DNA of 9,270 bases, taken from contig JAGLYR010000038.1 of assembly GCA_023132135.1 (NCBI GenBank), positions 1 to 9,270 of the forward strand, given 5' to 3'. The position numbers and the translations under genes are program-made. The notes beneath the pieces are model-generated. The model saw only the letters and a program-made list of their open reading frames with translations. It was not told where the DNA came from and did no database searches. Below are positions 1,511 to 9,270 of the stretch, piece by piece (position 1 is the stretch's first letter; the number at the start of each line of letters is the position of its first letter). This DNA is from Candidatus Eiseniibacteriota bacterium. GTDB lineage: Bacteria; Arandabacterota; Arandabacteria; JAGLYR01.

Positions 1511-2176
1511 ATGATGGCCGGACCACTGGCATTGGGGATTCTGGTCTCCGGTCGAGGATCCAACATGGAGGCGGTGCTCGACGCCATCGGGGCCGGGCAG
1601 CTCGATGCCGAGGTCCGGGTGGTCCTGAGTGATGTGGAAAGCGCGCCCGCCCTGAGAACCGCGCTGTCCCGCGGTGTTCCAGCGCTGCACATTCCCACAG
1701 GCAAATACCGGACTCGCCTCAGCGACGAGGCCGAGAAGGAGTGGGTCCGGGTCCTCAGGGAGCACGGAGTTGAGGTCATTGCCTTGGCCGGTTTCATGAG
1801 GATGATCCACGAGACGATCCTCTCAGCATTTGCCGGCCGGATTGTCAACATCCATCCCGCTCTCCTGCCGGCTTTCCCTGGACTCCATGGACAGAGGCAA
1901 GCCCTGGACTACGGGGCAAAGGTGGCCGGTTGTACCGTCCATTTCGTGAACGAGGGCATGGACACCGGACCCATAATCGGGCAGCGTGTGGTCCGGGTCG
2001 AAGCAGATGACACGGAGCAGTCCCTCTCGGCCAGGATTCTGGAGCAGGAACACGAGCTGTATCCGGAATGCCTCCAACTTCTGGCTGAAGGGAGACTCCG
2101 TATCGATGGCAGAAGAGTTCGCATCCTGAGTGCGCAGGATGCATTGAGGAAGGAATGCAATGACCCGAGTGGTTGA
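1511..2176 (+). CDS. purN: Phosphoribosylglycinamide formyltransferase (GAR transformylase)
   Basis: A 221-residue cytosolic enzyme that moves the formyl group of 10-formyl-tetrahydrofolate to glycinamide ribonucleotide, the third step of de novo purine synthesis. Seen: a Rossmann-type N-terminus with the phosphate-binding loop SGRGSN (13-18), AGFMRM in the middle, and the catalytic triad N113, H115 and D151 in NIHPALLP and NEGMDTGPI. These match E. coli N106, H108 and D144 with a constant offset of 7. Length is normal (E. coli about 212). Two tandem ATGs (1511 and 1514) are possible starts. GGGAG at 1504-1508 is only 2 bases from the first and 5 from the second, so the second may be the real one. 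It is first gene of the cluster and overlaps purC by 17 bases in another frame, which suggests translational coupling. Confidence 0.97.
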   Translation: MMAGPLALGILVSGRGSNMEAVLDAIGAGQLDAEVRVVLSDVESAPALRTALSRGVPALHIPTGKYRTRLSDEAEKEWVRVLREHGVEVIALAGFMRMIHETILSAFAGRIVNIHPALLPAFPGLHGQRQALDYGAKVAGCTVHFVNEGMDTGPIIGQRVVRVEADDTEQSLSARILEQEHELYPECLQLLAEGRLRIDGRRVRILSAQDALRKECNDPSG

Positions 2177-3050
2177 TGAAACCCGCCTTACGCAGGTCCC
2201 GCTTCTCCGTCGGGGCAAGGTACGAGACATCTACGATCTCGGGAACCAGTTACTTCTGGTTGCGACGGACCGCGTGAGTGCTTTCGACGTGGTGCTGCCG
2301 ACTCCGATTCCGGACAAGGGTTGCGTCCTGACGCAGCTGTCGGAGTTCTGGTTCGGTATGACGACGGGCATTCTTGCGAATCACATGATCTCAACCAACA
2401 CGTCGGATTTCCCGCCGGAACTCCAGCCTGAGGCGGAGACCCTGGAAGGGCGGTCCACGCTTGTCAAGAAGACCCGTCCCATAGAGGTCGAATGTGTGGT
2501 GAGGGGCTGCATCTGTGGCTCCGCGTGGAAAGAGTACAGGGACGGAGGAACGGTGGCGGGAGAGCCTTTCCCGCCCGGTCTGGTGGAGTTCGGATTGTTT
2601 CCGGAGGTGGTCTTCACCCCGGCGGTCAAGCGACACGAGGGGCACGACGAGAATATCTCCTTCGCAGAGCTCATAGACACAGTCGGGCCGGATCTGGCGG
2701 AGCGCCTGAAGAATCTGAGCGTCGCCATCTACGAACTGGGGCGGGCACACGCGGGGCAGGCGGGATTCATTCTCGCCGATGCCAAGTTCGAGTTCGGATG
2801 GGACGGGGACGAGCTGATTCTGATCGACGAGGTACTGACACCGGATTCATCCCGGTACTGGGTGGCGGAAACATGGGTGCCCGGCAAGCCGCCGGATTCG
2901 GCGGACAAACAGCTGGTGCGCGACTACCTGACGTCTATTGGTTGGGATGGGACACCGCCTGTTCCGGTTCTTCCCGGCGATCTGGTTGATCTGGTCCGCT
3001 CACGCTACCGGGAAATCTATCGCAGGCTGGTGGGCAGTGAGCTGCCGTGA
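2160..3050 (+). CDS. purC: Phosphoribosylaminoimidazole-succinocarboxamide synthase (SAICAR synthetase)
   Basis: A 296-residue ATP-grasp-like enzyme that joins CAIR and aspartate to give SAICAR, using ATP. Seen: GKVRDIYD (19-26) and DRVSAFD for nucleotide binding, the family signature around PIEVECVVRG, EGHDEN (160-165), ILADAKFEFG, and the metal and nucleotide site IDEVLTPDSSRYW beginning at I222 (D223, E224). It belongs to the long form like yeast Ade1 (about 300 residues) rather than the short form of about 237 in E. coli. The start ATG sits inside the end of purN and is preceded by AGGAAGGA (2148-2155 region) at good spacing, so the overlap is genuine. The protein is complete. purH begins 33 bases after its stop, so purN, purC and purH are probably one transcript. 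Confidence 0.98.
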   Translation: MTRVVDETRLTQVPLLRRGKVRDIYDLGNQLLLVATDRVSAFDVVLPTPIPDKGCVLTQLSEFWFGMTTGILANHMISTNTSDFPPELQPEAETLEGRSTLVKKTRPIEVECVVRGCICGSAWKEYRDGGTVAGEPFPPGLVEFGLFPEVVFTPAVKRHEGHDENISFAELIDTVGPDLAERLKNLSVAIYELGRAHAGQAGFILADAKFEFGWDGDELILIDEVLTPDSSRYWVAETWVPGKPPDSADKQLVRDYLTSIGWDGTPPVPVLPGDLVDLVRSRYREIYRRLVGSELP

Positions 3051-3083
3051 AACAATATCCGGACACGGAAGGGAGATAGGTGA

Positions 3084-4694
3084 ATGGGACCTGCTTCTGT
3101 CAGGCAGAACCAAAAGGGCGCGGACCCGTCGAAGTCCGGCCTCCGGAAGGTGGAGGTTGCCCTTTTGAGCGCGTACCACAAGGAGGGTCTCGTTGAATTC
3201 GCCCGTGGACTGGAGCGGCTGGGAGTGAGGATCCTCTCGTCGGGCGGATCCGCCGCCGCGCTCCGCGAGCGCGGAATCCCGGTAGAAGAGGTCTCCGACT
3301 ACACCGGCTGGCCGGAGATGTTGGGGGGGAGGGTCAAGACGCTGCATCCCAAAGTGCATGCCGGGGTCCTGGCGCGGCGGGATGACGCCGGGCAGATGGA
3401 CGAGCTCGCCTCAGCCGGGATTCTGCCCATCGATCTTGTGGCCATTGATCCCTACCCTTTTGAAGAAATCGCGGCTTCGAGCGATTCGCGTTCCAGAGCG
3501 GTGGAGGGGATTGACATCGGCGGGCCCGCGCTCTTGAGAGCTGCGGCCAAGAACCACGAGTTCGTGGTCGTGATCCCGGGCCGCGCGCTCTACGGCGATG
3601 TCCTCGATGTTCTGGAAGCAAACGATGGGGCAACGGATCTGGATTGCCGCCGCCGTTGGGCCGCGGACGCTTTTGATCTGGTGTCGCGCTACGATGCGAA
3701 GATCTCCTCCTTTCTCGGGTCGGATGAGGAAAAAGAGTTCCCTTCACGGCTACCGGCGGATTTGCGTCTGACGCGTGTTTTCCGCTACGGCGAGAATCCT
3801 CACCAGCGGGCCGCCCTCTACCGGGAGGAGGGCGCGCCGGAGGGTACAGCGGTCGGCGCGCGCCAGATCCAGGGGAAAGCGATCTCTTTCAACAACATGG
3901 TGGATCTGGATGCAGCCGTGAGACTGGCGGCGAGTCTTGACCGTCCGGGGGCGGCCGTTATCAAGCATGCCAACCCCTGTGGGGTGGCCGTTGACGATGT
4001 GCTCCGCGACGCTTTTGTCCGGGCAAGGCGGACCGATGAGAAGTCGGCTTTCGGCGGCGTGATCGCAGTCAATCGTCCTCTGGATGGAGAGACGGCAGCG
4101 GCCATCGTCGAGTTCTTCGTGGAGGCTGTGATCGCTCCCGAGGTTACGGAGGAGGCTCGGGAGATCCTGGCCCGGAAAAAGAAGCTGGTGGTCCTCGAGG
4201 CGGGAGATCTCCTCCGGCAATCTCCAGGCTCGCTGGAAATCCGTTCTGTCTGGGGCGGTGTCGTGGCACAGGAATGGGACCCAGGCAATTTCTCCTGGGA
4301 CGACGTCCAGGTTGTGACGGACCGGAAACCGACGGACGAAGAGATCGAGAAAATGACGTTCGGGTGGCGAGTGGTCCGGTTTGTCCGCTCCAACGCCATT
4401 GTCTTTGCCGATGCCAGGGCTACGACAGGGATCGGCGCCGGCCAGATGAGCCGCGTGGACTCCGTGCGCCTGGCCATCCGGAAAGCCCGGGAGGCCGGCC
4501 TGGAGATGACTGGATTGGCTATGGCCTCCGACGGGTTTTTCCCGTTCCCGGATTCTCTGGAAGTCGCGTCCGAAGTGGGAGTCCAGGCCGTGATCCAGCC
4601 CGGCGGTTCCATCCGGGATCAAAAGGTAGTCGATCGGGCCAACGAGCTCGGAATGACGATGGCCATGACCGGCTGTCGGCATTTCAAACATTAA
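3084..4694 (+). CDS. purH: Bifunctional AICAR transformylase / IMP cyclohydrolase
   Basis: A 536-residue enzyme for the last two steps to IMP: formylation of AICAR with 10-formyl-tetrahydrofolate, then ring closure. The N-terminal cyclohydrolase (MGS-like) domain shows SSGGSAAAL, GGRVKTLHPKVH (K85 to H92) and AAAKNH with K156, the likely equivalent of human K137. The C-terminal transformylase domain shows ISFNNMVDLDAA, KHANPCG with catalytic K294-H295 (human K266-H267), SAFGGV, GAGQMSRVDS and SDGFFPFPDS. It ends in the usual HFKH, so it is full length. About 20 extra residues precede the usual start of the family at VEVALLSAYHKEG. GGGAG (3071-3075) supports the ATG at 3084. Third gene of the cluster; it shares its folate cofactor with purN. 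A run of seven G at 3323-3329 lies in frame with no sign of a shift. Confidence 0.98.
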   Translation: MGPASVRQNQKGADPSKSGLRKVEVALLSAYHKEGLVEFARGLERLGVRILSSGGSAAALRERGIPVEEVSDYTGWPEMLGGRVKTLHPKVHAGVLARRDDAGQMDELASAGILPIDLVAIDPYPFEEIAASSDSRSRAVEGIDIGGPALLRAAAKNHEFVVVIPGRALYGDVLDVLEANDGATDLDCRRRWAADAFDLVSRYDAKISSFLGSDEEKEFPSRLPADLRLTRVFRYGENPHQRAALYREEGAPEGTAVGARQIQGKAISFNNMVDLDAAVRLAASLDRPGAAVIKHANPCGVAVDDVLRDAFVRARRTDEKSAFGGVIAVNRPLDGETAAAIVEFFVEAVIAPEVTEEAREILARKKKLVVLEAGDLLRQSPGSLEIRSVWGGVVAQEWDPGNFSWDDVQVVTDRKPTDEEIEKMTFGWRVVRFVRSNAIVFADARATTGIGAGQMSRVDSVRLAIRKAREAGLEMTGLAMASDGFFPFPDSLEVASEVGVQAVIQPGGSIRDQKVVDRANELGMTMAMTGCRHFKH

Positions 4695-4695
4695 C

Positions 4696-4724
4696 CAGCC
4701 TGGGTTATTCATGAATCCCTGCTG
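4696..4724 (+). repeat. Palindromic ATTCATGAAT repeat, copy 1 (hairpin just after purH)
   Basis: Positions 4697-4718 match the reverse complement of 7110-7131 in 21 of 22 bases, so this is a dispersed repeat. It folds imperfectly: CAGC with GCTG outside, GGG with CCC, then ATT-CATG-AAT with a TT bulge. It starts one base after the purH stop codon, so it could stabilise or end the purH transcript, though no T run follows. The second copy is a perfect palindrome. Confidence 0.75.
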
Positions 4725-4782
4725 CGAGGATCTCAGGATGTGCCTGGACTGCGCCCTGCCGCCGATTTCGATCCTCACCGGT

Positions 4783-4816
4783 GACCAGGGACTACGGACT
4801 AGGGACTAGGGACTAT
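4783..4816. repeat. Heptanucleotide tandem repeat GACTAGG, about five units
   Basis: Units of 7 nt starting at 4783, 4790, 4797, 4804 and 4811 follow GACTAGG with small changes (GACCAGG, GACTACG, GACTAGG twice, then a partial GACTA). The array occupies the spacer between purH and guaA, ending about 40 nt before the guaA start. The rest of the 161-nt spacer shows only copy 1 of the ATTCATGAAT repeat and the guaA ribosome site. No convincing guaA promoter was found, so guaA may be read from the purN promoter. Confidence 0.85.
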
Positions 4817-4855
4817 ATCCTGTCCTTTCCTTAATACTGGAGGTAGCTGCCGACC

Positions 4856-6382
4856 ATGATCGCTGTTCTTGACTTCGGTTCCCAGTACACGCAGCTCATT
4901 GCACGTCGGATCCGCCAGATGGGCGTCTTGGGGGAGATCTTCCCATGTGATGTCTCGCCGGTTCGTCTCAAGGACAAGCATGCGAGTGGCGTCATTCTGT
5001 CCGGCGGTCCGGCCAGTGTCTACGCTCCAGGAGCTCCGGACCTGAACCCCGAACTGCTGGATATAGGATTCCCGGTTTTGGGGATCTGCTATGGAATGCA
5101 GATCATGGCCAAGACACTGGGTGGGGTGGTGAAGTCATCTGGACAGGCGGAATACGGACCAGCGGAGGTCGATCTCGAGACCTCGGAGTTGCTGTTCCGG
5201 AATCTGGGCAGGCGGCAGTCCGTATGGATGAGTCATGGGGACCGGGTGGATGCGCTTCCCGAGGGTTTCACGTCCATCGGTTTCAGCAGTTCCAGTCCCG
5301 TGGCAGCCATGGCCAACGCGGGGCGGCGCTGGTACGGCGTTCAGTTTCACCCGGAAGTGAGCCACACGCCGGCGGGGATGGATATTCTCCGTCACTTCGT
5401 GTTCGATATCTGTGGGGCAGAGGCAGATTGGGACATCGGGCAGTTCGCGGACCAGGTCGTGCAGGAAATCAGTTCGCGGGTCGGCGATGGCAAAGTGATC
5501 ACGGCCGTGAGTGGTGGGGTGGACTCGACAGTGACAGCGGTTCTGATGCAGCGTGCGGTGGGCGACCAGCTGACCTGCATCTTTGTGGACAACGGGTTGC
5601 TCCGGGAGGGGGAGTGGGAAGAGGTCCCTGCCCGGTACAAGGAGCGGATGGGACTCCGCGTTGTTGCCGTGGATGCCCGGGAACGTTTTCTGAAAGCTCT
5701 CGAGGGTGTGACGGATCCGGAGATCAAGCGGAAGCGCATCGGCCGAACCTTCATTGAAATTTTTGAGGAGGAAGCCCGCCGCATGGGGAAGGTGGACTTT
5801 CTCGCTCAGGGCACTTTGTATCCGGACGTCATCGAGAGCATCTCGCAGAGAGGACCCTCCGCCACCATCAAGACTCACCACAACGTGGGTGGGTTACCCG
5901 AGACAATGAAACTGGAATTGATCGAGCCGCTCCGGGAGCTCTTCAAAGACGAAGTCCGGGAACTGGGCAGGGTGCTGGGGATCGATGCGGAGCTCCTGGG
6001 TCGCCACCCCTTCCCTGGGCCGGGTCTGGGAATCCGGGTCATCGGTGAGGTTACAGGGGAGCGGGTGAGGATTCTCCAGCGGGTGGACCGGATTTTCCTG
6101 GAACAGATCCGGAGGGCCGGGATCTACGACGAAATCTGGCAGGCCTTTGCCGTTCTCCTGCCTGTCCGGGCCGTGGGAGTGATGGGTGATGAAAGGACCT
6201 ACGAGGAAGCGGTAGTCCTGAGGGCGGTCACGTCCGAAGATGCAATGACGGCCGACTGGTCCCGGATCCCGGAGGAAATTCTGGCGGAGGTGTCGTCCCG
6301 AATCGTCAACGAGGTTCGCGGAGTGAACAGGGTACTGTATGATCTGAGTTCAAAGCCGCCGGCGACCATCGAGTGGGAATAG
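4856..6382 (+). CDS. guaA: GMP synthase (glutamine-hydrolysing)
   Basis: A 508-residue enzyme that aminates XMP to GMP using ATP and ammonia from glutamine. The class I glutamine amidotransferase domain (about 1-190) has LDFGSQYTQLIARR near the start, ILSGGPASVY, the nucleophile C78 in LGICYGMQ, and H165 and E167 in VQFHPEVSH, completing the triad. The ATP pyrophosphatase domain begins about residue 200 with the PP-loop SGGVDS (219-224), followed by FVDNGLLR and the XMP-binding region. The C-terminal dimerisation domain ends in SSKPPATIEWE, the standard end of the family. The protein is complete with no anomaly. GGAGG at 4839-4843 is 12 bases from the ATG, a long spacing, but no better start exists because homology begins at residue 2. 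It lies 161 nt after purH, same strand. The partner guaB (IMP dehydrogenase) is not in the window. Confidence 0.99.
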   Translation: MIAVLDFGSQYTQLIARRIRQMGVLGEIFPCDVSPVRLKDKHASGVILSGGPASVYAPGAPDLNPELLDIGFPVLGICYGMQIMAKTLGGVVKSSGQAEYGPAEVDLETSELLFRNLGRRQSVWMSHGDRVDALPEGFTSIGFSSSSPVAAMANAGRRWYGVQFHPEVSHTPAGMDILRHFVFDICGAEADWDIGQFADQVVQEISSRVGDGKVITAVSGGVDSTVTAVLMQRAVGDQLTCIFVDNGLLREGEWEEVPARYKERMGLRVVAVDARERFLKALEGVTDPEIKRKRIGRTFIEIFEEEARRMGKVDFLAQGTLYPDVIESISQRGPSATIKTHHNVGGLPETMKLELIEPLRELFKDEVRELGRVLGIDAELLGRHPFPGPGLGIRVIGEVTGERVRILQRVDRIFLEQIRRAGIYDEIWQAFAVLLPVRAVGVMGDERTYEEAVVLRAVTSEDAMTADWSRIPEEILAEVSSRIVNEVRGVNRVLYDLSSKPPATIEWE

Positions 6383-7220: not shown

Positions 7221-9270
7221 ATGCTCGGAAAGCTCATAGCCAGGATCTTCGGAACCAAGCACGAACGCGACATCAAACGCATTCGTCCCGCCGTTGACAA
7301 AATCAACCGTGTTGCGCACTCGTACCGCCTGTTGAGCGACGGAGAACTCCGGGGGAAGACGCAGGAGTTCCGCGAGCGGGTGGCCCGCGATGAGACTCTC
7401 GACGATCTGCTTCCCGAAGCTTTTGCCGCAGTGAAGGAGGCATGCCGCAGGTTGTCGGGCAAGACCTGGAAGGTCTGCGGAGTGGACACCGTCTGGGAGA
7501 TGGTTCCCTTTGACGTGCAGCTGATCGGGGGTGTAGTCCTTCACGAGGGGAGAATCGCCGAGATGGCCACGGGTGAGGGGAAAACCCTCGTGGCTACCAT
7601 GCCGCTCTACCTGAATGCACTCGCCGGCGGAGGCGCTCACCTGATCACGGTGAACGACTACCTGGCCCGGCGGGATTCGGAATGGATGGGCAAGATCTAC
7701 GAGTTCCTCGGGCTTTCGGTTGGCTGCATCCAACACGACATGACTCCGGAGGTGCGCAGGCTCCAGTACGCGGCGGATATCACATACGGAACAAACAACG
7801 AATTCGGCTTCGACTACCTCCGGGACAACATGGCTGTACGGACCGAGGACCGAGTTCAGCGGGGGCACCATTACACGATTGTCGATGAGGTTGATAGTGT
7901 TCTCGTGGATGAGGCCCGAACGCCACTTATCATCTCGGGCCCGGTTGGGCACGCTTCGGACCAGAAGTTCTCAAAACTCAAACCCATGGTGGAACGCCTG
8001 GTCAAGAAGCAGATGCTCCTGGTCAGCGAGATCCTGAGTGAAGCCGAGACGTTCCTGAAGGAAGGCAATGATTACGAAGCCGGGGTCCGGCTCCTCCAGG
8101 TGCAGAGGGCTGCGCCCAAGAACAAGCGCTTCATGAAGATTCTCCAGCAATCCGGGACAAAGAAGCTCATCACCAGTGTGGAAGCCGACTTCATGCGGGA
8201 ACGCCGGCTTCCCTCCCTGGACGAGGATCTCTACTTCAGCATCGACGAGAAGGCAAACATCACGGGCCTCAGCGAGAAGGGCAGCGATTTCCTCTCGCCG
8301 GGCGAGAAGCAACTGTTCGTGCTTCCGGACCTGAGCATCGGGCTGAAGGAGATCGACGACAACGAGGCCATCGGGGCTGAAGAGAAAGCCCGGCGCAGAG
8401 AGGAACTCCATCGTCTCTACGCCGAACGCAGCGACACCGTCCACTCGCTGAATCAGCTGCTCAAGGCCTACTCCCTGTTCGAACGCGACGTGGGGTATGT
8501 CGTCCAGGAAGGCAAGGTTGTCATTGTAGACGAGTTCACGGGGCGTCTCATGGCGGGGCGGCGTTTCAGCGACGGGCTTCATCAGGCTCTGGAGGCCAAG
8601 GAAGGCGTGACCGTCGAGCGGGAGACGCAAACCTTCGCCACCATCACTCTCCAGAACTACTTCCGCATGTACGACAAGCTGGCGGGGATGACAGGCACCG
8701 CCGAGACCGAGGCGGGGGAATTATGGCAAATCTACAAGCTGGATGTCGTCGTCATCCCCACCAATGAGCCCGTGCGGCGTGTGGACTATGAGGACGTGAT
8801 CTATCGCACCAAGCGGGAGAAGTACAACGCTGCCGTCGAGGAAATCGCCCGCTGTCACGAGCAGGGACGTCCCGTGCTTGTAGGTACCGTGACGGTGGAA
8901 GTGTCCGAGGTACTGAGCCGTATGCTCAAGAGGCGGAAGATCCCGCACAGCGTGCTCAATGCCAAGCACCACCAGCAGGAGGCGCAAATCGTGGTGATGG
9001 CGGGCCAGCGGGGCTCAGTCACCATTGCCACCAACATGGCGGGCCGCGGGACCGACATCAAGCTCGGACCGGGTGTGGTTGCCTGCGATAACTGTTGTCT
9101 GCTATGCGAGACGCTGGATTGCGAGCACTGCGATCACGAGCCGCTGGAGTGCGCCGGTGCCGTTCCATGCGGACTCCATATCATCGGGACCGAACGTCAT
9201 GAGAGCCGGCGGATCGACCGGCAGCTCCGCGGTCGTTCAGGCCGCCAGGGCGATCCTGGATCGTCCCGTT
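7221..9270 (+). CDS. secA: Protein translocase ATPase SecA, 3' end beyond the window
   Basis: The motor ATPase that drives unfolded preproteins through SecYEG at the inner membrane. The first 683 residues are present and the frame is open to the window edge. Seen: N-terminus [17 protein letters not shown], Walker A ATGEGKT (116-122), DEVD (222-225) followed by [11 protein letters not shown], an enlarged preprotein cross-linking domain (about 226-430), VDEFTGR (436-442), [11 protein letters not shown], and in NBD2 GRGTD (608-612) and [19 protein letters not shown] (653-671) with arginine fingers. Between GPGVV and CGLH a 29-residue segment (622-650) carries eight cysteines and two histidines, where E. 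coli has its variable subdomain and B. subtilis a short link. The scaffold, wing and C-terminal zinc/SecB tail are off-window. An in-frame TGA at 7212-7214 makes 7221 the first possible start; the ribosome site is weak. Transcribed alone after the cold-shock gene. Confidence 0.98.

Follow-up and report, generated by a model that had tools for sequence, protein, structure and literature searches.

We describe an insert with eight cysteines in the second nucleotide-binding domain (NBD2) of the protein export motor SecA from a Candidatus Eiseniibacteriota bacterium, and we suggest that it represents a form of the VAR subdomain that binds metal, most likely zinc, and in which the cysteines would probably make two nested Cys4 sites with a structural role. 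As judged from the sequences collected here, the insert stands at one extreme of a larger family of VAR subdomains with four or eight cysteines. The window, i.e. the whole stretch of 9,270 nucleotides that we analysed (the full length of contig JAGLYR010000038.1), carries the following features of secA:

7221..9269, + strand: secA, 683 codons, running off the contig end and covering NBD1, the PPXD with a helical insertion, and most of NBD2
9033..9068, + strand: helicase motif V region (GRGTDI), intact upstream flank of the insert
9084..9170, + strand: eight-cysteine VAR insert, SecA residues 622-650, from the translation and with the spacing checked by script
9084..9095, + strand: first half of the outer quartet, C622-x2-C625, kept in four-cysteine relatives of type A; putative metal site 1, with the pairing as proposed below
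9096..9131, + strand: inner quartet, C626-x2-C629-x4-C634-x2-C637, missing as a unit in relatives of type A; putative metal site 2, with the pairing likewise proposed
9150..9170, + strand: second half of the outer quartet, C644-x5-C650, followed directly by GLHIIG
9171..9260, + strand: strand and lead-in to helicase motif VI (GLHIIG...), intact downstream flank of the insert

In translation, the insert reads C622 D N C625 C626 L L C629 E T L D C634 E H C637 D H E P L E C644 A G A V P C650, with C622 encoded at 9084-9086 and C650 at 9168-9170, and the script returned gaps of 2,0,2,4,2,6,5 between successive cysteines, corresponding to the in-frame pattern C-x2-C-C-x2-C-x4-C-x2-C-x6-C-x5-C. Pfam places this stretch inside the P-loop_SecA domain and thus in NBD2, where motif V (GRGTDI) precedes it and the strand of the downstream flank follows. 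When a profile of the region was compared with the PDB, it aligned from end to end with residues 497-555 of E. coli SecA (2FSF) and matched B. subtilis-type SecAs over its first 15 positions only, which locates the insert at the position of VAR. An earlier note, made from the window alone, had described this cysteine pattern in an open frame with intact flanking motifs and had assigned it to VAR; translation and script reproduce the pattern exactly, both flanking motifs are seen in the translation, and the domain placement together with the alignment to E. coli SecA bears out the assignment. No Pfam zinc-finger family was found on the insert of the window SecA and a PDB search with the insert alone gave no match, and we therefore dropped the idea that the insert is homologous to a zinc finger.

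The protein that carries the insert has the domains of SecA in the expected order in Pfam, i.e. SecA_DEAD (1.4e-125), the preprotein cross-linking domain SecA_PP_bind (3.1e-28), and P-loop_SecA (6e-64). Its NCBIfam scores of 777 bits for TIGR00963 (cut-off 800) and 812.9 for NF009538 (cut-off 814) are those of a protein that lacks its C-terminal third because the contig ends. We found no C-terminal third of this SecA elsewhere in the same assembly, where the sole match was a SEC-C-like stretch of 21 residues inside a frame of 55 amino acids. Genomes of the window's phylum have one secA each, and the window gene is accordingly the housekeeping copy; because the SecA models were also its best matches, an accessory SecA2 or a recent duplicate was ruled out. 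SecA residues 248-326 (window 7962-8198) form an extra, mostly helical segment in the preprotein cross-linking region that is modelled with high confidence by AlphaFold2; this segment is also present in Zixibacterial SecA and lies outside alignments to E. coli-type SecA. Upstream, Pfam identified a purine biosynthesis run on the + strand (1511-6382; purN-like formyltransferase, SAICAR synthetase, AICARFT/IMPCHase, and GMP synthase) that leads up to secA, and beside the purine genes on the - strand (105-1250) an archaeal-type fructose-1,6-bisphosphatase family member, FBPase_3 (PF01950, 5.9e-180).

Among the eight sampled genomes of the window's phylum, the six with a complete region all keep the eight cysteines, with gaps of 2,0,2,4-5,2,6-9,5; in G002 the region is broken by a contig start and the visible cysteines are kept, and in G004 the region is absent. 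In a second phylum (f72, sampled as 20 genomes around G076), all 19 readable genomes have the eight-cysteine form, and its spacing is almost unchanged. Across 25 distinct sequences from both phyla, each of the eight cysteines is invariant and the remaining columns of the insert average 62% identity, a degree of conservation that exceeds chance. The cysteines are thus kept together across relatives in two phyla, and this joint conservation makes a metal cluster the likeliest reading. The two histidines to which the earlier note had also drawn attention, H636 and H639, are present in the window SecA; neither is conserved among relatives of the class, and we have abandoned them as metal ligands.

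To place the insert in a wider context, we surveyed 386 genomes spread over the domain together with the phylum of G016 (98 genomes), which appears to be Zixibacteria, the phylum of G010, and named genomes. At least 41 of the 386 genomes carry the cysteine cluster, and beyond the window's class it occurs in no fewer than 23 families. Both numbers are lower bounds, since long-insert variants obtain poor scores. Counted per segment over distinct sequences, there were no cysteines in 85, one in 14, two in 1, three in 4, four in 67, five in 4, six in 1, seven in 1, and eight in 30, numbers that are not frequencies because the sequences were picked non-randomly, by similarity to a cysteine-rich profile. 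The counts cluster at 0-1, 4, and 8, with 11 distinct sequences at other numbers, and nothing in the similarity search as such accounts for a gap between four and eight. The insert of L143 is identical in sequence to that of record JAAYTW010000219.1 (L032).

The 67 distinct four-cysteine sequences come from Zixibacteria, Gemmatimonadota, and many unnamed lineages and have two main forms, type A (C-x2/3-C-x17-27-C-x5-C, n=15) and type B (C-x9-13-C-x5-7-C-x5/6-C, n=51, counting one with 8,9,5), while L201 has four cysteines in a rearranged spacing. Both types keep the terminal pair, which is present as C-x5/6-C-G-L in 102 of the 103 distinct VARs with at least four cysteines. In all four sequences with five cysteines, four form a quartet and the remaining one lies 57 residues upstream of it, within an extra segment. 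Further exceptions to the 0/4/8 pattern include L023 and L202, with three cysteines, and L198 and L199 (G376 and G249), whose VARs have seven and six, respectively; the latter two belong to a distant SecA lineage in which a basic GKRRKKK tail lacking SEC-C closes the frame, and their VAR resembles a version in decay or one of independent origin. Two other variants were observed in VARs with a four-cysteine quartet. In family f274 of the phylum of G010 (L174, L175, L177, L178, L180, and L181), VAR has grown to ~148 residues and has an extra segment of ~80 residues (KSFLLVAENGEVLRNL...) ahead of the quartet. In L006, L135, L139, and L142 (G037, G184, and G319), the motif VI lead-in reads GTSRHES in place of GTERHES, which is near-invariant elsewhere.

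SecA trees of 190 and 46 rows, from which the insert columns were excluded, indicate how these forms are related. The four-cysteine form is spread across a large FCB-like clade and was absent from the Bacteroidetes, Marinimicrobia, and Latescibacterota that were sampled. A clade with a support of 99 contains f151, the window's phylum, and f72, the other eight-cysteine phylum, and the f151 sequences (L136 and L138) are of type A, keeping the outer four cysteines and missing exactly the inner C-x2-C-x4-C-x2-C. L225-L227 (G403, G478, and G303), which make up one family inside the Zixibacterial four-cysteine clade, have a VAR of similar length that has lost all four cysteines together. Monophyly of all eight-cysteine rows was rejected (p-AU 0.0145), implying that the second quartet was gained or lost more than once; a single clade for the canonical eight-cysteine spacing was not rejected (p-AU 0.279). 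As read from these sequences, quartets came or went as units, and did so more than once.

Mainly on the grounds of this unit-wise gain and loss, we assign the cysteines to two sites. In our model, C622, C625, C644, and C650 would form the outer Cys4 site, and C626, C629, C634, and C637 would form the inner one, nested within it. Each metal would pin a short loop, thereby making the connection from motif V (GRGTDI) to the GLHIIG strand before motif VI rigid and fixing its geometry. Four-cysteine relatives would have one site only, and there would be none where the linker is short or VAR is of the E. coli type. Regulation of ATPase activity and of ADP release by VAR of E. coli SecA is stated in the title of Das et al. 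2012 (cited in PMC6620043), and, going by that title, the simplest role for a rigid VAR held by metal would be to set the dynamics of NBD2. By its position, the insert would tune NBD2 movement and the release of nucleotide (ADP) rather than make contact with the preprotein. The x11 spacing of type B fits C625-C637, making a different pairing of the cysteines possible.

The cysteine spacing alone would also permit Zn2Cys6-type or Fe-S arrangements. One or more Fe-S clusters, comparable to the cluster inserted in XPD/DinG helicases, would be in keeping with Cys4 quartets within an SF2-like motor and with the observation that most carriers of the eight-cysteine form lack a haem-copper oxidase; nevertheless, oxidase-bearing genomes retain the four-cysteine form, CxxC knuckles spaced as C-x2-C-x4-C-x2-C occur more typically with zinc than with Fe-S, and the weak non-SecA matches of the profile in the PDB are mostly zinc-finger proteins (Helios, Ikaros, and RBM22), matches that are at chance level and imply no homology. 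We therefore consider an Fe-S site unlikely. It would be very surprising if the cysteines bound no metal, forming disulfides or lacking function as a product of lineage composition, because SecA works in a reducing cytoplasm and the cysteines are invariant in two phyla and keep to a quartet stoichiometry over many lineages. What speaks for this idea is that AlphaFold2 was unconfident at the insert, with a pLDDT of ~40-50 both in the window SecA and in one Zixibacterial four-cysteine SecA; however, with no metals modelled and few cysteine-bearing rows, these models neither support nor exclude clustering of the cysteines.

Alternatively, the cysteines might act as a redox- or metal-responsive switch, in which oxidation or the supply of zinc or iron would change ATP turnover and link export to the state of the cell. 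The insert adjoins motif VI and lies in VAR, the subdomain with the regulatory role in E. coli named in the title cited above, and the C-terminal metal domain of E. coli SecA has been proposed to be iron- or redox-responsive (PMC6620043). Also in line with a switch, haem-copper oxidase is rare with the eight-cysteine form: in a survey of COX1, it was present in 1/16 genomes with 6-8 cysteines, in 29/70 with 4-5, and in 22/41 with 0-3. The four-cysteine form, however, occurs both with and without the oxidase, and the relation between cysteine number and oxidase was not significant in phylogenetically independent pairs. Thus, the switch is possible, though improbable in our estimation, and finds no support in the oxidase survey once relatedness is handled; because the COX1 differences are not significant in the independent pairs, we also dropped oxygen lifestyle as an explanation. 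Moreover, invariant cysteines in quartets suit structural sites at least equally well. It is equally a doubtful proposition that a dinuclear metal-binding VAR in the housekeeping SecA of several phyla brakes ADP release in response to metal or redox state and makes export follow that state. From the earlier proposal of a zinc, redox-sensitive, or Fe-S site, we retain the metal cluster and set aside the redox or Fe-S switch in view of the survey and the independent pairs.

Our preferred reading, a structural and most likely zinc-holding VAR, bears on a motor that is nearly universal and has been studied mostly in a few model species in which VAR is helical or missing. We found no published description of a cysteine cluster in VAR in the open-access literature, most subscription papers being outside this search, and we provisionally regard the four- and eight-cysteine forms as a new variant of the subdomain. 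If conserved in many FCB-type phyla, such VARs would give the core motor a further metal site, beyond the C-terminal zinc domain. The natural variants with zero, four, and eight cysteines could be used to probe the effect of VAR on ADP release, and the gain and loss of whole quartets would offer a clean example of stepwise evolution of a metal site.

The insert was compared with several known systems. It shares its insertion point, from motif V to the downstream strand, with VAR of E. coli SecA (within 497-555 of 2FSF) and differs in being rich in cysteines, whereas the aligned stretch of E. coli has none. The C-terminal SEC-C zinc domain (CxCx8C[CH]) is likewise a cysteine-based metal site in SecA; as the earlier note had pointed out, it differs from the insert in both place and spacing, and because relatives in the phylum hold SEC-C separately from the insert, the latter is not a relocated SEC-C motif, the corresponding end of the window SecA being missing. 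Lineage-specific surface inserts have been described in the ATPase domain of SecA from Thermotogales/Aquificales (50 amino acids) and Thermales (76 amino acids), in a paper that mentions neither cysteine nor zinc (PMC7023208); the 50-amino acid insert sits in NBD1 (PMC7023208), unlike the insert described here. The four-cysteine Fe-S domain of XPD/DinG is inserted between motifs I and II of lobe 1 and differs in location from the SecA insert, which follows motif V in NBD2. In the PriA helicase, a cysteine-rich region with eight cysteines and two zinc ions is inserted in the second RecA-like lobe, so that both proteins have eight cysteines inserted in lobe 2 of an SF2-type motor, although the insertion point and the spacing differ. 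No PriA chain was among the PDB matches up to an E-value of 10. The PriA region is probably the best functional analogy for the SecA insert, a likeness that does not make the two members of one family.
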